Made by a program: the position numbers and the translations under genes. From positions 1 to 55,726 of the forward strand of contig NZ_JAGXGF010000163.1 in NCBI RefSeq assembly GCF_024636815.1: a stretch of 55,726 bases of DNA, in the 5' to 3' direction. The DNA is from Marivirga sp. Lineage in GTDB: Bacteria; Bacteroidota; Bacteroidia; Cytophagales; Cyclobacteriaceae. The notes under the pieces were generated by a model, which had not been told where the DNA came from, searched no databases, and saw only the letters and a list, made by a program, of their open reading frames with translations. This document shows, piece after piece, positions 18,684-30,552 of this stretch; within the stretch, counting starts at the first letter, position 1; each line of letters opens with the position of its first letter.

Positions 18684-19514
18684 ATGAATAGACAGGATAT
18701 AGAAATATCGGATTTGAGGCGCATTACGGAATTGGTAAAGGAGCAATACAAATATGATTTTACCAATTATGCTATGTCCTCTTTTCGAAGAAGGATACTT
18801 CGAATTATGGAGCTCTATAAATTCGGGTCTGCTGATTTATTAATCAAAAGATTAAAGGACGATAAATCTTTCTTTGATGAATTTATTGCAGAAATTACAG
18901 TGAATGTAACAGAGATGTTTCGAGATCCTCCTTTTTGGAGAGAATTGAGAGATAATGTGATTCCTAATATTTTATTAAATCACAATACTATTAGCATTTG
19001 GCATGCCGGCTGCTCCTCCGGTGAAGAGGTTTTTTCTATGGCTATTTTGCTTAAAGAAATGGGAATATTAGAAAAAGCAAAAATCATTGCCACAGATATT
19101 GACAAAGTCATTTTAGAAAAAGCTAAGAAGGGTCATTACTCCATGAAAAATATGGAGCTAAATGAAAAGAACTATATCCGTTTTGAAGGCAAAAGTAATT
19201 TTAAGGATTATTTTAAAGAAGAAAATGGTAAGGCAGTAATGGATAAATCTCTGATTCAGAATGTCTCTTTTAGAGAGCATGATTTAGTTCAGGGTGTGGT
19301 TTTTAACAAATTCGATTTAATCCTCTGTAGAAATGTGATGATATATTTCAATCAAAATCTGCAAAATGAAGTATTGAAAAAGCATCACGAAAGTTTATTC
19401 AAATATGGCTATTTGGTTATAGGCTCCAAGGAATCTTTAATCTGGTGCGAAATAGCTAATAAATTCATTGTAGTAAATAATGAAGAGAAAATTTATAAAA
19501 AAATCAAAGACTGA
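18684..19514 (+). CDS. CheR-type protein-glutamate O-methyltransferase
   Basis: This 276-residue protein has the N-terminal helical CheR domain (residues about 1-75, with YDFTNYAMSSFRRRILRIME) and the SAM-binding domain with motif I as IWHAGCSSGEEVFSMAILL near residue 110, IIATDIDKVILEKAKKG, and FDLILCRNVMIYFNQNLQ near residue 213. CheR enzymes methylate glutamates on chemoreceptors. No receptor, CheA or CheW gene is present in the window, and the neighbours are CheB and SiaABC-like genes, so its substrate may be a non-chemotaxis protein (inference). CheB follows 22 bases downstream. Confidence 0.93.
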   Translation: MNRQDIEISDLRRITELVKEQYKYDFTNYAMSSFRRRILRIMELYKFGSADLLIKRLKDDKSFFDEFIAEITVNVTEMFRDPPFWRELRDNVIPNILLNHNTISIWHAGCSSGEEVFSMAILLKEMGILEKAKIIATDIDKVILEKAKKGHYSMKNMELNEKNYIRFEGKSNFKDYFKEENGKAVMDKSLIQNVSFREHDLVQGVVFNKFDLILCRNVMIYFNQNLQNEVLKKHHESLFKYGYLVIGSKESLIWCEIANKFIVVNNEEKIYKKIKD

Positions 19515-19536
19515 GGTCTGTACAAAATAGTACTCA

Positions 19537-20130
19537 ATGGCTCGATTTAATCTTGATAATAAATATAAAGCAATCGTAATTGGAGGATCTGCAGGTAGTT
19601 TTCAGGGAATAACCCAAATTCTTTCTGCAATTCCAGCCGATTTCAGCTTACCTATTATCCTGTGCTTGCATAGATTGAAACATGTACGCAATGGTTTTGT
19701 AGAGGCCTTGTCTATTAAAAGTATTAAGCCGGTAGTAGAGCCTTATGATAAAGAAAATATAAAAAAAGGAAAAGTATATTTAGCTCCCGCTAATTACCAT
19801 TTATCTATAGAGTTAGGGAATTCAATAGCCCTTTCAACCGAAGAAATGTTTAATAATTCAAGGCCTTCAATTGATATTACTTTAGAAACAGCAGCCTATA
19901 ATTATAGAGATAAATTAATTGGTATTTTACTATCAGGTGCCAATAAAGATGGTGCATTAGGGATGAAGAGGATTAAGGATAGAAAAGGGTTAACAATTAT
20001 TCAAGATCCTGAGGAATGTATGATAGATACTATGCCTACAGCGGCAAGAAATATTACTGAAATCGATTACACCTTAAAAGTTCAAGAGATTGTTGAATTC
20101 TTAAAGGAATTAGACAAATTGTATAAATGA
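19537..20130 (+). CDS. CheB-type methylesterase domain, without receiver domain
   Basis: This 197-residue protein consists only of the CheB catalytic domain. The expected triad is visible: Ser18 in VIGGSAGSF, His in ILCLHRLKHV near residue 46, and Asp in LSGANKDGALGM near residue 137. Classical CheB is about 350 residues with an N-terminal receiver that CheA phosphorylates; that part is absent, not frameshifted, because the ORF starts cleanly 22 bases after cheR. Its activity must therefore be controlled differently, or be constitutive. Besides demethylation, CheB can also deamidate glutamine. A terminator-like hairpin follows the gene. Confidence 0.92.
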   Translation: MARFNLDNKYKAIVIGGSAGSFQGITQILSAIPADFSLPIILCLHRLKHVRNGFVEALSIKSIKPVVEPYDKENIKKGKVYLAPANYHLSIELGNSIALSTEEMFNNSRPSIDITLETAAYNYRDKLIGILLSGANKDGALGMKRIKDRKGLTIIQDPEECMIDTMPTAARNITEIDYTLKVQEIVEFLKELDKLYK

Positions 20131-20497
20131 TTTTTAATTTTTTGCCTGAAAAGCAATACAATTATATATATTTGATGATGTTTGCACAGTTCAAACATAT
20201 CATTTTTTGGAAATAAAAAGTATTATGACGCCTTGACTGAAAGGTGAATTTAATTAAGTATAATAATATATTTTTAGAGTTTTAATGATTCTTAATTTAT
20301 AATATTTAATAAACAATTTAGTGTTTTTTATTCAGGGATGTATTCATTTGAAATGAGCATAAATTTTAGATATCTTAATATTTCAATTAACGATAGCTTA
20401 CCTGCCTTTGGTAGGAATAAATTTGTAGCTAGATCCTTTTGGGGCAACCAGTGAAATAGGGGACAAGTTATAGTAATAAAAAATTTGAAGTATATAC
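20131..20497. other. Non-coding gap between cheB and the GAF gene
   Basis: This 367-base stretch holds a terminator-like hairpin at 20173-20208. A second hairpin (ACCTGCC TTT GGTAGG, near 20400-20415) is followed at once by TAAATTTG (20418..20425), which fits the -7 consensus and lies 72 bases before the GAF-protein start. No -33 match is evident at the right distance. A short leader RNA with some structure is possible; I could not match it to a known riboswitch. Confidence 0.35.
20173..20208 (+). terminator. Terminator-like hairpin after cheB
   Basis: TGATGATGTTTG pairs with CAAACATATCA across a 7-base loop with one bulged base, and a T run follows. It lies 43 bases after the cheB stop and suggests that cheR-cheB and the downstream genes are at least partly separate transcripts. 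Confidence 0.65.
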
Positions 20498-21322
20498 ATG
20501 AAAGCATTATATAAAAATTTAGCACTTATTACCTCTTTGCTTTTTACTTTAAGTATTATAGGTTTAGCTTATTATCTTTTCATTTTTCCAGAGCGAATAG
20601 CAAATGAAACCCACCTTATAAGCTTAACGGAAGTACCGGAATTAAAACCCGTTCTTAATGAGCTATATATTTTTAGTGGTGTATCTGTGCTGTTAGGTTT
20701 CGTTTCAATTCTATTGCATCTTTTTAACAAGGGTAATGATGAGGAAAGTAATGTGGTTTACATTGAGAAATTTAAAGAGAAAAAAAATTCAAAAGACACG
20801 CAGAATGAGGAAAATGTAGAAGCAGATGTTGATGAAGAATTGAAAGAAATAAATGCTAAAATTAAAAAGGAACCAAACAATAAAATCAAGGCAGAGAAAT
20901 TATTATCTTATTTAGCGGGTCAATTAGAGGCTAGTCAAGGAGCAATATATGTAGCCGATAAAATGGATAATAAAAATGTCATAACATTATTTGCTGCCTA
21001 TGCTTTTGTTTTACCGGAAAGCCAAACAGTATCATATGAATTTGGAGAAGGTTTAGCAGGTCAAGTGGCAAAAGAGAAAAAAATGATCAATATTTCAGAC
21101 ATACCTGAAGGCTATATTAAAATATTATCAGGCTTGGGAGAATCAAATCCGGCACATTTAATATTATGCCCTATCATGAAGGATGAAAAGCTTTTAGGTG
21201 TAGCGGAAATTGCATCTTTCAAAGCATTTAAAAAATCTCATGAGGTATTAGTTGAAAAGTCATTGGCTTTGTTAGCAAATGATTTGGATAAAGGACAGAA
21301 AAAGGAAACAGAAAAACAATAA
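20498..21322 (+). CDS. Two-helix membrane protein with a cytoplasmic GAF domain
   Basis: This 274-residue protein has hydrophobic helices at about residues 7-29 and 54-74, separated by a short loop that should face the periplasm. A charged linker (about 80-130, Lys/Glu/Asp-rich) leads to a GAF domain at about 134-268, with GAIYVADKM, FGEGLAGQVAKEKK and LILCPIMKDEKLLGVAEI as landmarks. GAF domains bind small ligands or mediate dimer signalling; no output domain is attached. The GAF is clearly similar to the one in the next protein (FAEGLVGQSA and ILIVPLITDEKVYGVLEF), suggesting a regulatory partner or duplicate. It lies 28 bases before that gene. Confidence 0.85.
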   Translation: MKALYKNLALITSLLFTLSIIGLAYYLFIFPERIANETHLISLTEVPELKPVLNELYIFSGVSVLLGFVSILLHLFNKGNDEESNVVYIEKFKEKKNSKDTQNEENVEADVDEELKEINAKIKKEPNNKIKAEKLLSYLAGQLEASQGAIYVADKMDNKNVITLFAAYAFVLPESQTVSYEFGEGLAGQVAKEKKMINISDIPEGYIKILSGLGESNPAHLILCPIMKDEKLLGVAEIASFKAFKKSHEVLVEKSLALLANDLDKGQKKETEKQ

Positions 21323-21350
21323 TTCATTTTTTAGGATCAAAGAATTCAAT

Positions 21351-24300
21351 ATGTTTAAAAACATAAAAATCGGGACTAAAATCACTACAATTTTACTTTT
21401 TGTAGTATTGGTAAGCGTTATAACGGTTAGTTTTATTACTTATAACATGAACCGAGATTCAATTGAAAAATTGAATTTTGATAAATTAATGTCTTACAAT
21501 TCACAAAAAGCTGAGAAGATAGACAACTTATTTGAAGGGATTCAGAATAATGCGAATCATATTTCAGGTTTATTGTCCATTCAATCTGGGGTTAGAAAGT
21601 ATCAGGAGGAGGATACAACTATAAATGCAGATAGTTTGAAAGCGGCAGTTTTATTTGAAATAGAAGCTGATTTAAGAACTTTTGTTGAAAATTATTCAAT
21701 TGATGCAGTTTTATTGACTGATTTGAACGGTGAGATAATTTTCAATACTAATAATTCAGTTGAATTACTTTCAAAAGGTGAAAACTTGAAAAATCAGGAT
21801 GAAGATTTTTATAATTTAGCTATTAACTCAGCAACCTTCAATAAACCTCAGGAATATGGCGAAACAGAATTAGTATTATTCGGGATGCCATTAATTGATG
21901 ATTATAATAGTCCTGCCGGTTTATTAGTATTGGTGAAAAATATGGATCCAATTTATGAATTTGTTAAAGCCAATTCTACCGGGTTTAAGACTTATGAAAG
22001 TATTTTAACTGTTCAGAGTGGAAATCAAGCACTATTTCTTTCTCCCTTAAAACAAGTTGCAGATAGCTTAGCACCATCATCCGTCACTTTAAAAGAAGAA
22101 ACTTCAATTGGTGTACAGAAAGCAGCATTAGGTGAAAATGGATATGCTAAAGATGTGAATTATGATGGAGAAGAGGTTTTATCCGCATGGAGTAATATTC
22201 CATCGGTGGAGTGGGGAATTGCTTCACATGTTAAAGAGGCAGAAGTGCAAGAGCAGTTAAGAGGATTAATCAAGAAATTTGTTTATACAGGTGTTATAAT
22301 ATTATTTCTTTCTCTTATTATATCCATAATATTTTCAAGAGTTTTATTAAATCCAATTCTATCCTTAAAAGAAACCCTAAAATTATTAGGGAAAGGTATT
22401 TTACCTAATAATGTGCCAAAGAAATCAGATGATGAAATAGGTGAAATGGCATTAATTCTAGATGGTTATGTTTCATCATTAAAAAGCACAGCCAATTTTG
22501 CTAAGCAAATTGGGGAAGGAGATTTTCAAGCGGATTTTAAACCTATCTCTGAAGAAGATACATTAGGAAACTCATTAATTAATATGAGAAATTCCATTCA
22601 AGAAGCCGAAAAGAGAGATAAGGAAAGGAATTGGATTGTTACAGGTGTTGCTGAAATAGGAGAAATTCTTCGTAGTAATGATAGTTTAGAGCAATTAGGA
22701 GATGAGATATTAAAATATGTTACTGAGAAAATAGATGCCATTCAAGGTGCCTTTTATGTCTTAAATGATGATGATTCTGAGAATTATTTCCTGGAAATGA
22801 AATCAAGTTATGCCTATAACAAAAAGAAATATCTCAAGGCTCAATTCAAATTTGCAGAAGGATTAGTGGGGCAATCGGCTATTGAACAAGATACATTAAT
22901 AAGAACGGAGATACCGCATGATTATGTAAGCGTTACTTCTGGTCTATTGGGAGATCAACGACCTAGTTGTATATTAATAGTTCCTTTGATTACGGATGAA
23001 AAAGTCTATGGTGTATTAGAGTTTGCCGGGTTCCATAAGTTTGATTCCAGTCAGGTTAAGTTCGTAGAAGAAATTAGTTTGATTATTGCTAGAACGGTCT
23101 TCAATATTAAAGTAAATGAAAGAACCCGTAAGTTATTAGCAGAATCACAGACAATGAGTCAGGAGCTTCAGGAGCAACAGGAAGTATTGAGACAGAATGC
23201 GGAAGAAATGGAGGCTACTCAGGAAGAGCTGAAGCGTACGAACCAACGATTGGAAGATCAAATAGAAGAAGTGAACCGCACTCAGAAACGTATGCAGTTA
23301 TTGCTTGAAAATGCTTCTGAGGTTATTACTATTTATGAAAAAGATGGAACGGTTCGTTATATTTCGCCTTCAGTAGAAAAGATTCTAGGTTACAGACAAG
23401 AAGACATCATCGATACGACAGAGCTGGATAAAGTACATCCAGATTCAAGAGAGGAAGTTCACGAGCAGTTCTTGTACCTGATAGATAATCCTGATGATTC
23501 TATTAACATGCAACATCAATATTTAAATAGTGATGATGAGTATGTATGGGTAGAAGTAACAGGTTCCAATCAATTGGAAGATCCTGCCATTCAAGGAATT
23601 ATATTCAACACTAGAGATATTACAGAAAGAAGACGTGCGGAACAAGAAGAGCGCATGAGAAGTAAAATGCAAGCCTTATCTGAAAATTCTATTGATTTGA
23701 TTACTCGAATTGATAATGAAGGCAAGTTCTTCTATGTAAATCCAATGATTGAGCGATATACAGGCAAACGACCTGATGAAGTCATTCAGAAAGGATTACA
23801 TGAAGCCGATATTGAACCAAAAATAGTTGAAGCTTGGGCTCAGTTGTTAGAAAAAGTTAGAGAACAGAATGAGAAAGTCACAGAGGAGGTAGACTTCCCG
23901 TCTGAAATGGGGGACAGGGTGATGCAAGTGAATGCTATTCCTGAATATGATGAAGAGAAGGTGTTGGAATCTATTTTGGTTGTTTCTCATGATATTACCG
24001 ATAGAAAATTAATTGAATTAGAAATTGCCAGTAAGAACAAGAAAATTACTGAGTCTATTAATTATGCTAAGCGTATACAAGGAGCTATCCTTCCAAACAA
24101 TCAGGTTATTCAACAAAAATTACCAAACTCATTCATTCTCTATAAGGCGAAAGATGTAGTAAGTGGCGATTTCCCTTGGTATATTGAAGTAGATGACGTC
24201 ATTTATATTGCAGCTGTAGATTGTACTGGACATGGTGTGCCAGGTGCATTGATTTCATTAATAGGTTACTTCTTATTAAACGATATTGTAAGGTCACAGA

Positions 24301-24800
24301 AAATTAGCGATCCGGGAATAATTTTAGATAAGTTGGATGCTGGTGTTACTTCTACTTTACGTCAGGATAGGGATGATTCTACCACCAAGGACGGAATGGA
24401 TATTGCTTTCTGTAAGATTGATAAGAAAAAGAATCAAATAGAATACTCAGGTGCTCATCGTCCATTATATTATTTGCATGCTAATGGCGAATTAGACGAA
24501 ATTAAGGGTAATAAATTCCCAATTGGTGGAGGTATTTATAGAAATCAAACCAATTTTGATAATCACAAAATCAAATATAAAACTGGAGATGCAGTATTTT
24601 TCTGTTCAGATGGTTATCCAGATCAATTTGGTGGGCCACAAAACAGAAAATATGGACCTAAGCGCTTAAGACAGACAATAGTCGATAATCACAGTAAATC
24701 TATGGATGAACTACATATTATATTTGACGAAGCTTGGGAAAACTGGAAAGCAGACTATAAGCAAACAGACGATGTACTCTTAATAGGTATTAGATTTTAA
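21351..24800 (+). CDS. SiaA-like membrane sensor with PP2C/SpoIIE phosphatase output
   Basis: From the ATG at 21351 the protein has 1149 residues; a longer reading frame from 21279 would overlap the previous gene and lacks a signal-anchor start. Predicted order: helix about 9-30, periplasmic double-Cache-like sensor about 31-305, helix about 309-331, HAMP about 332-385, GAF about 430-590, coiled coil about 590-650, two PAS domains about 650-765 and 767-885, and a C-terminal SpoIIE/PP2C phosphatase about 913-1149. Metal-binding acids are kept in VVSGDFPWYIEVDD, AAVDCTGHGVPGAL, FFCSDGYPDQFGG and TDDVLLIGI. With SiaB- and SiaC-like genes next, the likely substrate is the SiaC-like phosphoprotein. 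It has more sensory domains than Pseudomonas SiaA, which has HAMP plus PP2C. Confidence 0.9.
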   Translation: MFKNIKIGTKITTILLFVVLVSVITVSFITYNMNRDSIEKLNFDKLMSYNSQKAEKIDNLFEGIQNNANHISGLLSIQSGVRKYQEEDTTINADSLKAAVLFEIEADLRTFVENYSIDAVLLTDLNGEIIFNTNNSVELLSKGENLKNQDEDFYNLAINSATFNKPQEYGETELVLFGMPLIDDYNSPAGLLVLVKNMDPIYEFVKANSTGFKTYESILTVQSGNQALFLSPLKQVADSLAPSSVTLKEETSIGVQKAALGENGYAKDVNYDGEEVLSAWSNIPSVEWGIASHVKEAEVQEQLRGLIKKFVYTGVIILFLSLIISIIFSRVLLNPILSLKETLKLLGKGILPNNVPKKSDDEIGEMALILDGYVSSLKSTANFAKQIGEGDFQADFKPISEEDTLGNSLINMRNSIQEAEKRDKERNWIVTGVAEIGEILRSNDSLEQLGDEILKYVTEKIDAIQGAFYVLNDDDSENYFLEMKSSYAYNKKKYLKAQFKFAEGLVGQSAIEQDTLIRTEIPHDYVSVTSGLLGDQRPSCILIVPLITDEKVYGVLEFAGFHKFDSSQVKFVEEISLIIARTVFNIKVNERTRKLLAESQTMSQELQEQQEVLRQNAEEMEATQEELKRTNQRLEDQIEEVNRTQKRMQLLLENASEVITIYEKDGTVRYISPSVEKILGYRQEDIIDTTELDKVHPDSREEVHEQFLYLIDNPDDSINMQHQYLNSDDEYVWVEVTGSNQLEDPAIQGIIFNTRDITERRRAEQEERMRSKMQALSENSIDLITRIDNEGKFFYVNPMIERYTGKRPDEVIQKGLHEADIEPKIVEAWAQLLEKVREQNEKVTEEVDFPSEMGDRVMQVNAIPEYDEEKVLESILVVSHDITDRKLIELEIASKNKKITESINYAKRIQGAILPNNQVIQQKLPNSFILYKAKDVVSGDFPWYIEVDDVIYIAAVDCTGHGVPGALISLIGYFLLNDIVRSQKISDPGIILDKLDAGVTSTLRQDRDDSTTKDGMDIAFCKIDKKKNQIEYSGAHRPLYYLHANGELDEIKGNKFPIGGGIYRNQTNFDNHKIKYKTGDAVFFCSDGYPDQFGGPQNRKYGPKRLRQTIVDNHSKSMDELHIIFDEAWENWKADYKQTDDVLLIGIRF

Positions 24801-24894
24801 CTGGGAAAAGTTTAATTATAAATAAAATTATTTAATTTAAGGCTTGAAAATGAATAGGGTTACAATTGAAAAGGCTTTTTAACCGAATAACAAC

Positions 24895-25437
24895 ATGAAG
24901 TATATATACGATCTACATAAAACCATGCTGTCAAGAAACCTAATCTTGGTTTACGAAGGGGAATTTACCCAAGAGATTACCAAATCAGTTTTAGCAATGG
25001 CAGAACGAAACATGGATTCTATGGGTGAGGAGTCAAGCATAAAACGTAAGGTGTTTAATGTAATGGTAGAATGCTTACAAAATATCGTAAAACATTCAGA
25101 TGATTTTAACCCGCTTTCTGCTAAAAGAAATGCTGCAATTTTTATTATTGGTAAAGAAGACGATAGATATGTAGTAACAAGTGGAAATCCAGTTGATACT
25201 GAAGCAAAAGAATCTCTTATAGAGAGAATAGATGAAATTAATCACTTAGATAAAGAAGGTTTAAAAGCCAAGTATAAAGAAATTATTAAATCAAATAGTC
25301 TGTCCAATAAAGGTGGTGCAGGCTTAGGATTTGTTGATATGGCTCGGAAGTCTGGTCAGAAGTTAGAATATGACTTTGAAGACATGGGAGAAGGATTTCA
25401 TTTCTTTTCTTTGACCACTACTATTTTGAGACTTTAA
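24895..25437 (+). CDS. SiaB-family protein kinase (GHKL fold)
   Basis: This 180-residue protein fits the SiaB family (formerly DUF6272), a GHKL-type ATPase that phosphorylates SiaC on threonine. The N-box-like NVMVECLQNIVKHSDDF near residue 58 holds Glu and Asn for catalysis and Mg binding, and the G-box-like NKGGAGLGFVDMARKSGQ near residue 140 closes over ATP. No dimerisation or histidine-phosphotransfer domain is present, which agrees with an anti-sigma-factor-like serine/threonine kinase. It lies 94 bases after the phosphatase and 47 bases before the SiaC-like gene. Kinase activity is inferred from family and context. Confidence 0.88.
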   Translation: MKYIYDLHKTMLSRNLILVYEGEFTQEITKSVLAMAERNMDSMGEESSIKRKVFNVMVECLQNIVKHSDDFNPLSAKRNAAIFIIGKEDDRYVVTSGNPVDTEAKESLIERIDEINHLDKEGLKAKYKEIIKSNSLSNKGGAGLGFVDMARKSGQKLEYDFEDMGEGFHFFSLTTTILRL

Positions 25438-25484
25438 AATCTAAATTTTAGTTTAACTTTTAAATTTAAAACATAAAATTAAAT

Positions 25485-25847
25485 ATGGAAATCATTAACC
25501 TTGAAGGAACAGAGGATACCCCCAAAATATTATTAGATAAAGGAAATGGTATATTCGAAATATCAGGTCGTTCATTACCTGAAGACTCAGCTGAATTTTA
25601 TCAGCCTATTTTAGATTGGATTACAGCTTATGGTGAAGATTCAAATCCTGAAACATTGTTTACTTTTAAATTAGAGTATTTCAATACTGCTTCATCAAAA
25701 TTAATATTAGATGTATTATCAGCTTTAGAAGATATTGATGGTGTCACCATTGACTGGTATTTTCATGAAGATGATGAGGATATGGAGGAAGCTGGAGAAG
25801 AATTTTCTGAATTGGTGGAAATCCCATTTGAATTCAAAACATATTAA
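25485..25847 (+). CDS. SiaC-like regulatory phosphoprotein (DUF1987)
   Basis: This 120-residue protein matches the DUF1987/SiaC family, STAS-like proteins that switch partner according to phosphorylation. The segment LEYFNTASSKLILDVLSAL contains Thr68, the same residue number and setting as the threonine phosphorylated by SiaB in Pseudomonas aeruginosa SiaC. The protein is acidic with a very acidic loop (YFHEDDEDMEEAGEE). In Pseudomonas, unphosphorylated SiaC binds and activates the diguanylate cyclase SiaD; no GGDEF gene occurs here, so its target is open. A hairpin separates it from the ABC transporter gene. Confidence 0.9.
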   Translation: MEIINLEGTEDTPKILLDKGNGIFEISGRSLPEDSAEFYQPILDWITAYGEDSNPETLFTFKLEYFNTASSKLILDVLSALEDIDGVTIDWYFHEDDEDMEEAGEEFSELVEIPFEFKTY

Positions 25848-25873
25848 TTATTACTTTTTAGTTTTAATTGTTG

Positions 25874-25904
25874 TAGGCCATGTATTTACAATGGCCTATT
25901 GTTT
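25874..25904 (+). terminator. Terminator-like hairpin between the SiaC-like gene and the ABC gene
   Basis: TAGGCCAT (25874..25881) and ATGGCCTA (25891..25898) form a perfect 8-bp stem around a 9-base loop, followed by TTGTTTT. It may end part of the upstream transcript or act as a processing site before the next gene, which starts 29 bases later. Confidence 0.6.
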
Positions 25905-25932
25905 TACCTTTAAGCCATAACCGTCTTATTTT

Positions 25933-28900
25933 ATGAGTGAAGAGATACTCAAAGCCTTAACTCAATTATTTGGAATAATCACCAAGCAGGATGGAGGAGC
26001 CACTGAAAAGGAAAGAAATTTCGTTATTGGTTTCTTCCAGCAAGAGCTTGATCAAGACTCTATTAAAGAGTATCTGGAGCTCTATGATAAATTGGTTGGT
26101 TGGGGAGAAGAACCTGAAGAGGAGGCTGAAGATGGAAAATCTAAAAAGAAAAAACTTACTTCTGTTAGGGATTCGGTAAGAACGCTAGCCATTTGTAAGA
26201 AAATCAATAAAACACTAACCCAAAAGCAAAAAGTAGTAGTACTTATTAAGCTTCTGGAAATGGTTTCCGCTGATAAAAACTTCACACCACAGCGAATGGA
26301 AATCATTGATACCGTTTCTAATGTCTTTAACATTGTCAAAGACGAATTTAAACTTATTGAAAGCTTTGTTATTAAAAGCCAATCAGATGATTTGGAGCAG
26401 TTTGAAGATATTCTTGCTGTAAATAATGATACTCCTGCTGAAGATGGCCTTCATGTTCATGCTGATATTGATGGAGAGATTCTTTTCATGAATGTGAAAA
26501 GTGTGGATATGTATTTCGTGAAATACACAGGTACAGAAGAAATCAATCTGAACGGGTTTATTATGAAGACAGATTCAGTCTATCTGTTTTCTCATGGAAG
26601 CACTATAAAAACTCCAAAAGGTGCCGCCTTATATTATTCTGAGCTCATCAGAAAATTCTTATCTGATGCAGAGCAGGTTAATTTATCATTTAATGCTGAG
26701 AATATAGTTTTGCAGTTCCCGAATGGTGAGCTTGGGCTTAGAAATGTAAACGTTTTTGAAGGGCCTGGTGAGCTAATAGGTATTATGGGAGCTTCAGGTG
26801 CTGGTAAAACAACCTTATTGAATGTTTTAGCGGGTATCCAAGAGCCTACCGAAGGACAAATCAAGATCAATGGCCTTGATTTAAATAAAGATTCAGATCA
26901 ACTCCAAGGTATTATTGGTTATGTTGCTCAAGATGATTTGCTAATTGAGGAATTAACAGTTTATCAAAACTTGTACTACAATGCAAAGCTTTGTTTTGCT
27001 AATTTGTCAGAGGAGGATATTCATAAAAGAGTGATGGATACTCTGGAGAATTTAGGATTAGAGCAAAGGAAAGATTTAAGAGTAGGAAGTGTTTTAGATA
27101 AAACTATTTCGGGTGGGCAGAGAAAGAGATTGAATATTGCGCTTGAACTTATCCGTGAACCAGCTGTAATGTTTGTAGATGAACCAACATCAGGTCTTTC
27201 TTCCAGAGATTCTGAAAATGTAATAGATTTATTAAAAGAATTAACCCTTAAAGGGAAATTAATATTTGTAGTAATTCATCAGCCGTCTTCTGACATTTAT
27301 AAAATGTTTGATAAGATGATCCTCATGGATACAGGTGGATATCAAATATTTTATGGTCATCCTATAGAAGCGGTGACTTATTTTAAAAAGACTACTAATC
27401 AGGTTGATGCCGATAGAGGAGTTTGCCCAACTTGTGGAAATGTAAATCCTGAGCAAATTTTTAATATTATTGAGGCAAAAGTAGTAGATGAATATGGGCA
27501 ATTAACGAATAAGCGTAAAATTAATCCTACCCAATGGAGAGATTTTTATCATGATCATTTTGATCACAAACCAGTCAAAGAAGAAACCCAAGCACCTCCG
27601 TCAACACTAGCTATACCTAATAAATTAAAGCAGACAGTGATTTTCACTATACGTGATACGCTCTCAAAAATAAGTAATAAGCAGTATTTGTTGATCAATT
27701 TATTAGAGGCTCCATTTCTTGCTTTATTGCTTGCGTTTATTATTAAATACAGAAGCGCACCTTCAGGGGATGATTATATTTTCAGATTTAATGATAACCT
27801 GCCCGCATTTCTTCTAATGAGTATTATTGTAGCACTTTTCATGGGATTAACCGTAAGTGCTGAAGAAATCATACGAGATAGGAAAATTTTAAAAAGAGAA
27901 TCCTTTCTTGATTTAAGTTGGAATAGTTATTTGCTTTCCAAAATCACCATTCTATTTACTTTATCAGCAATTCAAACATTAACTTATGTTATTATAGGAG
28001 TTTTAGTACTGGAAATAAGAGACGCAACATTTAGTATGTGGGCAATTTTATTCACGACCTCATGTTTTGCAAATGTCCTCGGACTAAATGTTAGTTCAGC
28101 CTTCACCTCAGCTGTTACGGTTTACATTTTAATTCCTCTTTTACTTATTCCTCAAATGATTTTAAGTGGGTTGTTATTTAGCTTCGATAAATTGAATGAC
28201 GTAATAAGTACAAAAGGGAAAGTTCCTGTTGTAGCCGATTTGATGACTTCTCGTTGGGCATATGAAGCGCTTGCTGTTGATATGTTTAAAAACAATAGCT
28301 ACCAAGAATACTTCTATGACATTGAATCAGATGAAAAAACAGCTGATTTTAAATCCTCATTTTTAACTAAGAAAATCAGGGAGAAATTGAGAGTTATTGA
28401 AAATAATTTAGGTAATCAAGAAGTGGAGGCATTGGAGGAGATTGAATACTCTACAACAATTATTTATAATGCTTTAGAGAAAGAACCTTTTAAAGGAAAT
28501 TTAGAAGGTGAAAATTTAGATAAACTACTTGATCCTGAATCTGTTAGTCAAGATGATCTTGATAAGATAAGCTTATATGTTGATCAGTTGAGAGATCATT
28601 ACATAAATGAATTTAATTTAGCTGTGAAAAAGAAAGAGACTTTACAGTTTCATTTGGAGAATGATTCTTCTTATCAGTTTAATTTAAATGAAGCTAAAGA
28701 TTTATATTTCAACGAAAGTCTAGCTGATTTAGTAAGGAATCTGACTGTAGAAGATAGAGTTATTGAGTATAAAGGGCAGTTAATACAACAAATCGATCCT
28801 GTTTTTAATAGACCAGCAAAACCGGATAATTTGTTAAATTACAGGACTCACTTTTTTGCTCCTGAAAAGTATTTTGCCGGTGTTTATATTGATACGTTTT

Positions 28901-29022
28901 ATTTTAATATACTTGTGATATGGTTCATGTCTTTAATTTTATATATTACTTTGTATTTTGAGCTTTTTGGAAAGGCTTTAGTATTCTTTAGTAATATTAA
29001 ATTGAAAAAGTCAGAATCATAA
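25933..29022 (+). CDS. Fused ABC transporter (ABCG-type half) with TerB-like N-terminal domain
   Basis: This 1029-residue protein begins with an acidic helical domain (about 1-150, EEILKALTQLFGIITKQDGG and similar) that resembles TerB-like modules. A beta-rich, possibly FHA-like region follows (about 170-255). The ABC domain has Walker A GASGAGKTT near residue 287, signature SGGQRKRLN near 392 and Walker B VMFVDEPTSGL near 412. CPTCGNVNPEQ near residue 498 could bind metal. The ABC2 membrane domain starts near residue 580. A soluble insertion of about 200 residues (about 780-980) precedes the final helix near 985-1012. This nucleotide-binding-first, White/ABCG-like order usually means export. 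Substrate and the link to SiaC are unknown. Confidence 0.85.
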   Translation: MSEEILKALTQLFGIITKQDGGATEKERNFVIGFFQQELDQDSIKEYLELYDKLVGWGEEPEEEAEDGKSKKKKLTSVRDSVRTLAICKKINKTLTQKQKVVVLIKLLEMVSADKNFTPQRMEIIDTVSNVFNIVKDEFKLIESFVIKSQSDDLEQFEDILAVNNDTPAEDGLHVHADIDGEILFMNVKSVDMYFVKYTGTEEINLNGFIMKTDSVYLFSHGSTIKTPKGAALYYSELIRKFLSDAEQVNLSFNAENIVLQFPNGELGLRNVNVFEGPGELIGIMGASGAGKTTLLNVLAGIQEPTEGQIKINGLDLNKDSDQLQGIIGYVAQDDLLIEELTVYQNLYYNAKLCFANLSEEDIHKRVMDTLENLGLEQRKDLRVGSVLDKTISGGQRKRLNIALELIREPAVMFVDEPTSGLSSRDSENVIDLLKELTLKGKLIFVVIHQPSSDIYKMFDKMILMDTGGYQIFYGHPIEAVTYFKKTTNQVDADRGVCPTCGNVNPEQIFNIIEAKVVDEYGQLTNKRKINPTQWRDFYHDHFDHKPVKEETQAPPSTLAIPNKLKQTVIFTIRDTLSKISNKQYLLINLLEAPFLALLLAFIIKYRSAPSGDDYIFRFNDNLPAFLLMSIIVALFMGLTVSAEEIIRDRKILKRESFLDLSWNSYLLSKITILFTLSAIQTLTYVIIGVLVLEIRDATFSMWAILFTTSCFANVLGLNVSSAFTSAVTVYILIPLLLIPQMILSGLLFSFDKLNDVISTKGKVPVVADLMTSRWAYEALAVDMFKNNSYQEYFYDIESDEKTADFKSSFLTKKIREKLRVIENNLGNQEVEALEEIEYSTTIIYNALEKEPFKGNLEGENLDKLLDPESVSQDDLDKISLYVDQLRDHYINEFNLAVKKKETLQFHLENDSSYQFNLNEAKDLYFNESLADLVRNLTVEDRVIEYKGQLIQQIDPVFNRPAKPDNLLNYRTHFFAPEKYFAGVYIDTFYFNILVIWFMSLILYITLYFELFGKALVFFSNIKLKKSES

Positions 29023-29102
29023 ATCAATGAGTTTATATTTTTTTTACTTGAAGAGTATTGAATTGTATCTAAAAAAAAAATACTGATTTTAAAAAAAGAG
29101 AA

Positions 29103-29133
29103 TTTGTATTAACTAAGGGAATTTCTATTTTTG
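29103..29133 (+). promoter_or_regulatory. Promoter for the lipoprotein gene
   Basis: TTTG at 29103..29106 and TATTTTTG at 29126..29133 match the Bacteroidetes -33 and -7 consensus with a 19-base spacer. Transcription would begin near 29139, past the first possible ATG (29136), which favours the ATG at 29154 as the start. Confidence 0.7.
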
Positions 29134-29153
29134 TTATGATAAAAAACATTTTT

Positions 29154-30056
29154 ATGAAAAATATACTTTTGGGGCTGTTAATAATAATTACAGCTCTAGC
29201 CTGCGACTCGAAGAAAAAACCTTCGGCAGATGAAATATCTAGTGTATTGGACTCTGTTAAAATAGAGGAACCCTCTATTTCTGAAGATGTCATATCTGAT
29301 ATTATCCAACAGATACCTTCTCCTTTAGAGATTTCTACTCTATTGAAAGAATCTGATACTAAATATGATAATAGTTATCTTAATGATCCTGAGAAGATAT
29401 CAGATTATAACAGTAATTATAAAAAAGCCTTAGCATTGGGGGTTTATGGTACTGATTTAGGATATACTAATATTTATGAACAAAATCAGGATGCCTTATT
29501 CTATCTTAATTCTATAAAATCTTTAGCAGATGATTTGAGTATAGGACAGTTCTTTGATATTGGAACTATTAAAAGATTAGCTACCAATAGTAAAAATTTA
29601 GATTCACTTCTTTTAATAACCACTAAAAATTTTAACAACATAAATAGCTACTTACAAGAGCAAAAGCGTTCTAATTTAAGTATTTTATTATTGTCAGGGG
29701 GTTGGCTTGAAGCGCTTTATATTGTTTCAAGGGTTTCAGAGAAAAATCCAAATAATGAACAACTAAAAGAAACAATAGCAGAACAAAAGATTATTATGGA
29801 TAATGTGGTCTTATTAATGTCTTTTTACAAAGATAATGATCCAAATATCAATCAGCTTTCCAATAAATTCACCAAGCTTCAAGAAGAATTTAATAAGATT
29901 GAAATTAAGACTGTATATCGTGAACCAACTTATGAAGTTGTAGATGGCATGCTTGTTGTTAAGGATAATAGTACAAGTGAAATCATCATGGATGATGAGA
30001 ATATTGAAGCAATAAGAAATCAGGTTTACGCAATTAGAGAGAACATTATTAACTAA
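29154..30056 (+). CDS. Predicted lipoprotein of unknown function
   Basis: I do not recognise this family. From ATG 29154 the protein has 300 residues: MKNILLGLLIIITALAC is a lipoprotein-type signal with Cys17 as the likely lipidated residue (the -3 to -1 residues ALA are acceptable). The ATG six codons upstream (29136) lies at or before the predicted transcription start. The mature part is mainly helical, with long amphipathic stretches (YNSNYKKALALGVYGTDLGY, FNNINSYLQEQKRSNLSI), no Cys and no catalytic motif. It has its own promoter after the ABC transporter gene and is followed 8 bases later by a secreted protein gene; the two probably form a unit. Confidence 0.75.
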   Translation: MKNILLGLLIIITALACDSKKKPSADEISSVLDSVKIEEPSISEDVISDIIQQIPSPLEISTLLKESDTKYDNSYLNDPEKISDYNSNYKKALALGVYGTDLGYTNIYEQNQDALFYLNSIKSLADDLSIGQFFDIGTIKRLATNSKNLDSLLLITTKNFNNINSYLQEQKRSNLSILLLSGGWLEALYIVSRVSEKNPNNEQLKETIAEQKIIMDNVVLLMSFYKDNDPNINQLSNKFTKLQEEFNKIEIKTVYREPTYEVVDGMLVVKDNSTSEIIMDDENIEAIRNQVYAIRENIIN

Positions 30057-30064
30057 GAAATTTT

Positions 30065-30493
30065 ATGAAAAAGCTAATCTTTGCATTAGGAATTATATTT
30101 ATATCAGCCTCTGTTCAGCAAACTTATGCTCAGTGTGATACTGAGAAGCATGTGGAAGCATGTATTCCTAAATTACAATCAGGCTTTACTTTTTTGAAAA
30201 GCTATAATATTGATGGTCAATCTGGGGCAAAAGATAAAGTAGAATACTCTTATGTATTTACCAAAGGAGCTACTTATCAAATAATGATTTGTAACGAAGG
30301 TTCAGGAACTGATGGGATAGTATTAACTTTATATGATTCAAACAGAAATAAAGTGGCATCAACAAAATATGAAGGCTCTACTTTATCAAGTATTGCATTT
30401 CCATGTCAGGTAACAGGTATTTACTACATAACTTATACATTTGAAGGCAGTTCAAACTATTGTGGTGGAAGTGTATTAGGGTTTAAACGATAA
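30065..30493 (+). CDS. Small secreted Cys-containing protein
   Basis: This 142-residue protein has a Sec signal peptide (residues 1-22, ending QQTYAQ). The mature part has five cysteines (QCDTEKHVEACIP, IMICNEG, AFPCQVTG, NYCGG), suggesting disulfides, and beta-rich segments such as GIVLTLYDSNRNKVASTKY and GIYYITYTFEG. These recall a small beta-sandwich like bacterial pre-peptidase C-terminal or adhesin domains, but I cannot assign a family. It follows the lipoprotein gene by 8 bases and is closed by a terminator, so the pair likely acts together in the envelope. Confidence 0.7.
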   Translation: MKKLIFALGIIFISASVQQTYAQCDTEKHVEACIPKLQSGFTFLKSYNIDGQSGAKDKVEYSYVFTKGATYQIMICNEGSGTDGIVLTLYDSNRNKVASTKYEGSTLSSIAFPCQVTGIYYITYTFEGSSNYCGGSVLGFKR

Positions 30494-30523
30494 GATTTCA
30501 CTTTTCATAATCTCAAAATTTTA

Positions 30524-30552
30524 AGAAGCAGGTTTTACCTGCTTTTTTTATT
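30524..30552 (+). terminator. Rho-independent terminator
   Basis: AAGCAGGT (30526..30533) pairs with ACCTGCTT (30537..30544) around a TTT loop and continues into a T run. It lies about 30 bases after the stop of the small secreted protein and closes the signalling and envelope cluster. Confidence 0.9.

Follow-up and report, generated by a model that had tools for sequence, protein, structure and literature searches.

Gene content of the locus

We analysed a 55,726-nucleotide stretch of Marivirga DNA, here called the window, which is contig C11 of a 4.0-Mb genome (88% complete; order Cytophagales). On its forward strand lie nine genes, between positions 18684 and 30493, that together probably form a SiaABC-type partner switch, a kind known from other bacteria to turn on a biofilm signal, with an ABCG-like ATP-binding cassette (ABC) half-transporter as its output in place of a diguanylate cyclase. 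A sequence-only reading of the window had proposed this single-strand set, and every open reading frame (ORF) was recovered where it had been placed, with the families confirmed by Pfam/NCBIfam. The set opens with cheR (18684-19514; PF01739, 153.5 bits), a stand-alone CheR methyltransferase, and cheB (19537-20130; CheB_methylest PF01339, 161 bits), a methylesterase domain without a receiver, and continues with a membrane GAF protein (20498-21322; GAF_2 PF13185, 37.3 bits) in which two N-terminal hydrophobic stretches were read by eye. These are followed by a 1149-residue SiaA-type sensor phosphatase of the layout dCache-HAMP-GAF-PAS-PAS-PP2C (21351-24800; SpoIIE domain PF07228, 67.6 bits), whose start at 21351 lies within a longer mechanical ORF beginning at 21279, by a SiaB-family protein kinase (24895-25437) and by the STAS-like phosphoprotein SiaC (25485-25847). 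The remaining genes encode the 1029-residue TerB-ABC half-transporter (25933-29022), a conserved, mostly helical lipoprotein with an invariant lipobox Cys23 (29136-30056) and a small secreted protein whose signal peptide was read by eye (30065-30493). The intergenic gaps are, in order, 22, 367, 28, 94, 47, 85, 113 and 8 bp, with the 367 bp preceding the GAF gene. A terminator-like hairpin with an 11-bp stem and then a T-rich tail lies 3' of the last gene on the same strand (30523-30547) as a consensus match only; hairpin-plus-T sites in the region number 6 against 5.0 in shuffles, which is chance level.

In P. aeruginosa, SiaB phosphorylates and SiaA dephosphorylates SiaC at T68 (PMC7647112); the STAS-like SiaC is described in published work as a diguanylate cyclase activator, T68 contacts SiaD, and phosphorylation weakens the binding (PMC8457831). 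The window proteins resemble this system in their catalytic and regulatory parts, as the sequence-only reading had supposed. The PP2C output of the sensor aligns to P. aeruginosa SiaA (6K4E; E=1.7e-36) and keeps the GDF, VDCxGHGVPGA, DG..DQ and DD motifs; the kinase scores 189.5 bits against the SiaB family NF038262 (cut-off 85) and 150.6 bits against PF19788; and SiaC scores 134.9 bits against PF09345 (cut-off 24.5). The predicted phospho-site Thr68 lies within YFNTASSK and aligns with YLNTSS of P. aeruginosa SiaC (PDB 6KKO/7E6G). Residues 66-71 are FNTASS in all 117 distinct SiaC sequences classed with adjoining SiaA and SiaB, and Thr68 is present in all 11 distinct sequences classed as having SiaB without SiaA, a class in which L094 does have a SiaA gene and L052/L177 is interrupted by a contig end. 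At the level of the narrower equivalogs, SiaA scored 203.9 against 700 (NF038263; the C-terminal 260 residues match and the sensor part is divergent), SiaB 104.2 against 225 (NF038264) and SiaC 83.4 against 150 (NF038265). Because these three scores all fall short and SiaD is missing, we class the core as a predicted variant of the SiaABC switch and not as SiaABCD.

The TerB-like/ABC fusion is likewise borne out, with TerB, ABC_tran and ABC2_membrane domains on one protein. TerB (PF05099) scores 30.6 bits on residues 8-142 (cut-off 24.4) and 24.7 bits on the whole protein; ABC_tran (PF00005, residues 270-420) lies ahead of ABC2_membrane (PF01061, residues 567-755), the single-chain order of nucleotide-binding and transmembrane domains. 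In an AlphaFold model (mean predicted local distance difference test, pLDDT, 79.5), read together with Pfam, an all-helical TerB part (~1-147) is followed by a beta domain (~157-240) and the ABC ATPase (~253-480), and the ABCG-like membrane domain carries a large helical insertion (~790-960). The top ten Foldseek matches are ABCG5, ABCG1 and ABCG2 chains (E 5.9e-23 to 2.5e-21; TMt 0.73-0.77); against the curated subfamily TIGR00955 the protein scores 255.5, below 736. The closest named transporters, with nearest records possibly omitted, are those of Marivirga sericea, M. arenosa, M. atlantica and M. aurantiaca (79-92% protein identity). At one related locus (L227:9428-9886) a separate 152-residue TerB-like protein, with a Pfam match below cut-off, lies between SiaC and TerB-ABC.

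The lipoprotein is 47-93% identical across 56 orthologues, with 43 invariant columns in 57 sequences, and the secreted-protein gene stands directly 3' of the lipoprotein gene in most related loci. Neither protein gave a convincing family match in Pfam/NCBIfam, the secreted protein having none over cut-off, and a fold search of the PDB with the lipoprotein model (pLDDT 81.7) returned nothing at E<=0.001. In a literature search that left most subscription papers and all bioRxiv preprints uncovered, we found a single paper naming DUF1987, PF09345, DUF6272 or PF19788, and nothing joining a TerB domain with an ABC transporter in Bacteroidetes.

Conservation of SiaC beside the transporter

The order cheR-cheB-gaf-siaA-siaB-siaC-terB-abc-lipoprotein is identical in all nine other genomes of the genus that were compared, and the secreted-protein gene follows in eight of them; in the ninth the contig ends before it. 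For the order as a whole we defined SiaC orthologues by at least 62% identity to the window SiaC, which yielded 78 orthologues in 76 of 148 genomes. An automatic count placed TerB-ABC downstream on the same strand, at most 4 kb away, in 58 of the 78, with 57 of these within 730 bp. Contig ends and diverged N-termini make this count too low: reading the remaining 20 neighbourhoods added ten linked copies (G153, G160, G085, G107, G135, G049, G112, G094, G065 and G026), and tblastn added G078, in which the start of TerB-ABC (its first 54 residues) lies after SiaC, close to a contig end. SiaC was thus found 5' of TerB-ABC on the same strand in 69 of 78 orthologues (with one further gene in between in G072 and G153), and the gene order on which the sequence-only reading had staked its proposal is conserved in related genomes. 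We used tblastn for the loci because ORF calling had masked SiaC beneath antisense or shifted ORFs in L178, L198, L114 and L136.

Nine copies are unlinked. Two of them (G127 and G166) are second copies in genomes with a linked one elsewhere, and the seven genomes whose sole orthologue is unlinked retain TerB-ABC elsewhere. The genes 3' of the unlinked copies vary by lineage (by eye, anhydro-muropeptide kinase, aspartate carbamoyltransferase, a carbonic-anhydrase-like protein and others), with no common alternative partner. All 76 genomes with a SiaC orthologue carry TerB-ABC. The automatic tally for the 148 genomes was both genes in 70, SiaC only in 6, transporter only in 3 and neither in 69 (Fisher odds ratio 268, shared ancestry ignored); on reading, TerB-ABC turned out to adjoin SiaC in all six 'SiaC only' genomes, and a SiaC fragment lies at a contig start in two of the three 'transporter only' ones; this leaves G109 with its paralogue-like transporter (37% identity). 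Named loci retrieved through transporter similarity, the best 80 of 342 and so biased to close relatives, have SiaC upstream in 76 cases; among the four exceptions, upstream sequence runs to just 1, 86 and 553 bp in L169, L214 and L241, and L242 has no SiaC. Across the phylum the TerB part (E<=1e-15) was found in 5 of 296 genomes, namely the window genome, three of its family and G234 from another order, where the lipoprotein-secreted-TerB-ABC set lies convergent with SiaB-SiaC (L264).

Eight related loci in metagenome-assembled Cyclobacteriaceae/Flammeovirgaceae (L206, L224, L228, L229, L234, L236, L238 and L240) show how far the cluster can be reduced. By tblastn these contain no SiaA, SiaB, CheR, CheB or GAF genes, within at least 7.9 kb of upstream sequence in seven of them and 996 bp in L229. 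SiaC nevertheless lies 28-52 bp from the TerB-ABC-lipoprotein-secreted set, preceded by a cytidine-deaminase-like gene (by eye). Since SiaC stays beside the transporter where SiaA, SiaB, CheR, CheB and GAF were not found, the transporter, and not CheR/CheB, is the apparent constant partner of this SiaC.

A ninth member of the reduced group, L220, lies at a contig edge. The SiaB family PF19788 gave no whole-genome match for L206, L224, L229, L234, L238, L240 or L220, and the genomes of L228 and L236 each have one SiaB, within a second, complete cluster. In the seven genomes without a SiaB match, Thr68 is replaced by Ile (L224 and L234), Val (L238) or Pro (L220) and remains Thr in three; replacement in 4 of 7 compares with 0 of 128 distinct SiaC proteins with adjoining SiaB (p = 2.6e-6, phylogenetically uncorrected). 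L234 and L238 are sisters in the transporter tree, and L224 and L220 group neither with this pair nor together; provided that Thr was the ancestral state, Thr68 thus appears to have been replaced three times or more. The nine reduced-group SiaC proteins branch, on long branches, within the transporter-linked SiaC class and apart from paralogues. We read this pattern as a probable loosening of constraint on SiaC and its Thr68 once the kinase had been lost, with the pairing to the transporter persisting.

Cyclases, docking stalks and the TerB domain

The sequence-only reading had noted that the cluster holds no GGDEF gene, and Pfam/NCBIfam found none among the window proteins. Across the order, GGDEF occurs in 2 of 148 genomes, the window genome and G054, and the latter has no SiaC match; among genomes of at least 90% completeness it occurs in 1 of 126. 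It was not found in 75 of the 76 SiaC genomes of the order set, nor in any of nine congeners, and in a first sample of 37 relatives it appeared twice, in the window genome and as a fragment in G015. On well-known control genomes the same search was positive in 8 of 14. Given its absence from 75 of 76 SiaC genomes, SiaD is, as judged from sequence, not the output of the window switch, and the switch must act on something else; the distant GGDEF partner that would have overturned the earlier proposal is very unlikely.

The sole GGDEF of the window genome is a REC-GGDEF-EAL protein (by eye) on the 6575-bp contig C213 (L039), with no stalk motif on reading of its linker. C213 also encodes a histidine-kinase-like protein, and it may be of foreign or mis-binned origin. 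Its G+C content is 36.0%, against 31.4-34.9% for five other stretches of the genome (the window, L036, L037, L038 and L040); this contrast does not settle contamination, and the eight plasmid matches listed are distant (34-45% identity).

Elsewhere in the phylum, SiaA-SiaB-SiaC is followed by a protein with a docking stalk and GGDEF (L267), which indicates that SiaD-like neighbours are detected where they exist. A comparable stalk was sought in the nine window proteins by scoring 32-residue windows against a profile of 10 stalk segments, and none was comparable: the best score, 17.7 in the SiaA coiled coil, is far below the 63-89 of the stalks that built the profile, and we rejected a SiaD-type stalk in the cluster. 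The SD-form stalk pattern matched 0 named cluster ORFs in related loci, although a GD form would escape it. The TerB segment KLTSVKDSV resembles a stalk by eye but is not kept across all SiaC-linked lineages, and we make no claim for it.

Several other SiaC modules were seen. In the window genome (C88; L036:8887-10370) and in L256, L262, L259 and L260, SiaB-SiaC is followed by a coiled-coil protein of 169-199 residues with a hydrophobic tail, which bears a SiaD-like docking stalk, ITKVSDRLQNKL / LTSVSDRLHSKL; no GGDEF was found in the two tested. This predicted stalk protein is a second cyclase-free neighbour of SiaC, in which the SiaD stalk is kept. A natural 321-residue fusion of SiaB kinase (PF19788) and SiaC (PF09345) precedes a stalk protein of the same type in L252 (1774-2739, reverse strand), and L251 (1935-2903, reverse strand) has a putative 322-residue counterpart. 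In L250 (1480-2562) a SiaC domain is fused C-terminally to leucine-rich repeats, with two more SiaC-like genes flanking it. L244, L246 and L247 carry a different SiaA-SiaB-SiaC set behind CheD-, CheB-, receiver- and CheC-like genes (in L246 Pfam identifies CheC) and thus tie SiaABC to Che proteins once more. The SiaC family is also expanded in places, with 19 matches in G035 and 14 in G026.

The transporter tree splits SiaC-linked sequences from a SiaC-free paralogue class. A second class of TerB-ABC transporters (L072-L075 and L087-L093) has no adjoining Sia genes, and some members lie next to a distant relative of the lipoprotein. Inside the linked class a clade of four (L060, L062, L241 and L242; support 0.987) has no SiaC at the locus, with only 553 bp upstream in L241. 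One of its genomes (G015, L062) has no SiaC match. A SiaC of 53% identity does occur in G023, G181 and G182, as part of a CheD/CheB/CheC-SiaA-SiaB cluster; the whole-genome search was for SiaC in G023 and for SiaB only in G181 and G182. The linked transporters differ from the rest at nine positions, which are conserved in more than 85% of 146 linked proteins and in less than 35% of 27 others, and six of the nine (10, 16, 35, 98, 121 and 143) fall in the TerB domain. Residue 121 is Arg in 142, Lys in 2 and Gln in 2 of the 146 linked proteins; all four SiaC-less clade members have Glu there, as do 13 of the 14 transporters in the paralogue class (the last has Gln), and the other nine unlinked or contig-edge copies have Arg or Lys. 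These residues are a suggestive lead for a putative SiaC docking site, short of proof.

The proposed switch, its rivals and known systems

The neighbourhood evidence suggests that the switch may control the export pump directly; that SiaC binds the transporter, where it docks, which sign the control has, and what is exported in which direction are points that we infer. In the mechanism we favour, the dCache/GAF/PAS sensor with PP2C output (SiaA) and the SiaB kinase would set the phosphorylation of SiaC Thr68. Unphosphorylated SiaC would dock on the transporter's cytoplasmic N-terminal region, with the TerB domain as the likeliest site, and would there switch the ATPase or the dimer assembly of the exporter; phosphorylation of Thr68 would take it off again. 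The lipoprotein and the secreted protein may form the periplasmic/outer-membrane side of the export path, and CheR, CheB and the GAF membrane protein an optional input layer. We lean, somewhat less firmly, towards extending this to the whole order, as a signalling system of bacteria that lack GGDEF enzymes: a dedicated kinase/phosphatase pair would control an ABCG-like exporter by reversibly phosphorylating a Thr of a docking protein that is STAS-like.

Other outputs have to be weighed against the transporter. SiaC might act in trans on a partner such as the stalk protein of a paralogous module and share only transcription with the transporter, since the window genome has 4 SiaC proteins, the window cluster showed no SiaD-like docking motif, and one paralogue (G000 C88) adjoins a 177-residue coiled-coil membrane protein that has one. 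Against this, SiaC proteins of this class co-occur with the transporter and stay paired with it even where no kinase was found, and in G028, a one-contig genome searched for SiaC only, the sole match adjoins TerB-ABC; we consider a trans partner unlikely. The Pseudomonas-like alternative, in which SiaC activates a diguanylate cyclase encoded at another locus, has next to no chance of being correct: the one GGDEF match in the window genome is the C213 protein, on a 6.6-kb contig and with no visible stalk motif, and the lack of GGDEF in nine congeners and 75 SiaC genomes means that the sequence record contradicts it.

The sequence-only reading had offered CheR/CheB as an alternative output, and SiaABC could indeed serve the CheR/CheB/GAF layer as a signalling feedback loop with the transporter as a passenger. 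The genes cheR, cheB and gaf lie 5' of siaA in most loci, and in the 66 linked order loci that we mapped to genomes, both cheR and cheB are present in 49. Of these 49, 28 are in genomes without a methyl-accepting chemotaxis protein (MCP) signalling domain over cut-off, the window genome (88% complete) also giving no MCP match; because no such domain was found, CheR/CheB in those genomes would need to modify something besides a standard MCP, perhaps the GAF or SiaA sensor. An E/Q-rich coil, present in 98 of 126 SiaA orthologues, offers a candidate, but it persists in 5 of 8 SiaA proteins without adjoining cheR, and action of CheR on it is unsupported. Moreover, cheR or cheB is absent from 17 of the 66 loci, and the eight reduced loci lack CheR, CheB and GAF (with 996 bp upstream in L229), and in all of these SiaC is still beside the transporter. 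CheR and CheB thus appear accessory and not obligate partners of SiaC, and the feedback loop is improbable; of the two outputs first suggested, the transporter is upheld by linkage and co-occurrence and CheR/CheB is not. A reversed sign, in which phosphorylated SiaC binds, for example via basic TerB residues, and kinase-less lineages are constitutive or have lost the switch, draws on the 146 linked transporters, of which 132 have Lys or Arg at residue 79 and 144 at residue 83. Retention of SiaC with Ile, Val or Pro at position 68 in 4 of 7 SiaB-less genomes fits the unphosphorylated form being active, and phosphorylation weakens SiaC-SiaD binding (PMC8457831) just as a phosphomimetic weakens MlaFB binding (PMC7367683); we give the reversed sign only a slim chance.

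Several observations weigh against control of the transporter by SiaC as set out above. Genes may keep their order within an operon for the sake of co-expression alone, and the co-occurrence p-values overlook kinship. With no SiaD-type stalk in the transporter, docking would need another surface, and the beta-rich residues 157-240 gave no Pfam match, FHA included, in 6 transporter fragments. As a SiaC contact, R121 is suggestive only: two later-found linked copies (L248 and L249) have A121 and two others Gln, L264 has E121 although SiaB-SiaC adjoins, and the E121 proteins without SiaC, one nested clade, amount to roughly a single event. The reduced-group SiaC proteins evolve fast (39-52% identity to the window SiaC), and so loss of Thr68 may be part of a general relaxation; three of the seven SiaB-less genomes keep Thr68, the nine members form one transporter-tree group with a support of only 0.32, and all nine kinase-less genomes are metagenome-assembled, so that SiaB absence may partly be missing sequence. 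Finally, MlaB T52A bound its ATPase yet was non-functional, which misfits simple phospho-control (PMC7367683).

If SiaC does control the transporter, the locus would be a kinase-encoded form of the STAS-ABC control that has been proposed but not shown for MlaB-MlaF, and SiaC would be a general adaptor with exchangeable outputs: a cyclase, a stalk-membrane protein and an exporter. DUF1987 proteins have been suggested to commonly modulate adjacent proteins (PMC8457831), and the window locus fits that suggestion. The locus also gives an unnamed transport system of Cytophagales, large and conserved, a candidate setting and means of control. The available main text of a review of STAS-only proteins (PMC8256260) mentions neither SiaC, MlaB, an ABC transporter nor diguanylate.

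Compared with SiaABCD of P. aeruginosa, the window has the PP2C phosphatase, SiaB and STAS-like SiaC in the same order, with Thr68 in a YxNT setting and the PP2C catalytic motifs, but it differs in having no SiaD or stalk motif, a larger sensor (dCache-GAF-PAS-PAS) and TerB-ABC as the next gene. The stalk-plus-GGDEF locus L267 and the stalk-plus-membrane-tail loci L036, L256, L259, L260 and L262 share homologous SiaB-SiaC cores with it; their neighbours carry the SiaD-type docking stalk and the window cluster does not. The Rv1747-PknF pair is similar in that an ABC transporter with an N-terminal regulatory part is modulated by a neighbouring Ser/Thr kinase, and differs in its FHA domains, where the window has TerB plus a beta domain that matches nothing in Pfam, SiaC as go-between and another kinase family. 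In MlaFB, the STAS protein MlaB is bound to the ABC ATPase MlaF through an interface that includes Thr52, and the T52E variant binds less well (PMC7367683). Our proposal for the window shares with it one STAS-like protein acting on an ABC transporter and a Thr in the structurally equivalent position. MlaFB is a phospholipid system with no kinase named, phosphorylation of MlaB in cells is unproven, and its control by phosphorylation was left open (PMC7367683); the window, in contrast, encodes a kinase/phosphatase pair and a transporter with an ABCG-like fold and a TerB domain. Because kinase, phosphatase, STAS-like protein and transporter are encoded side by side, phospho-control of a STAS-ABC pair is directly testable here.

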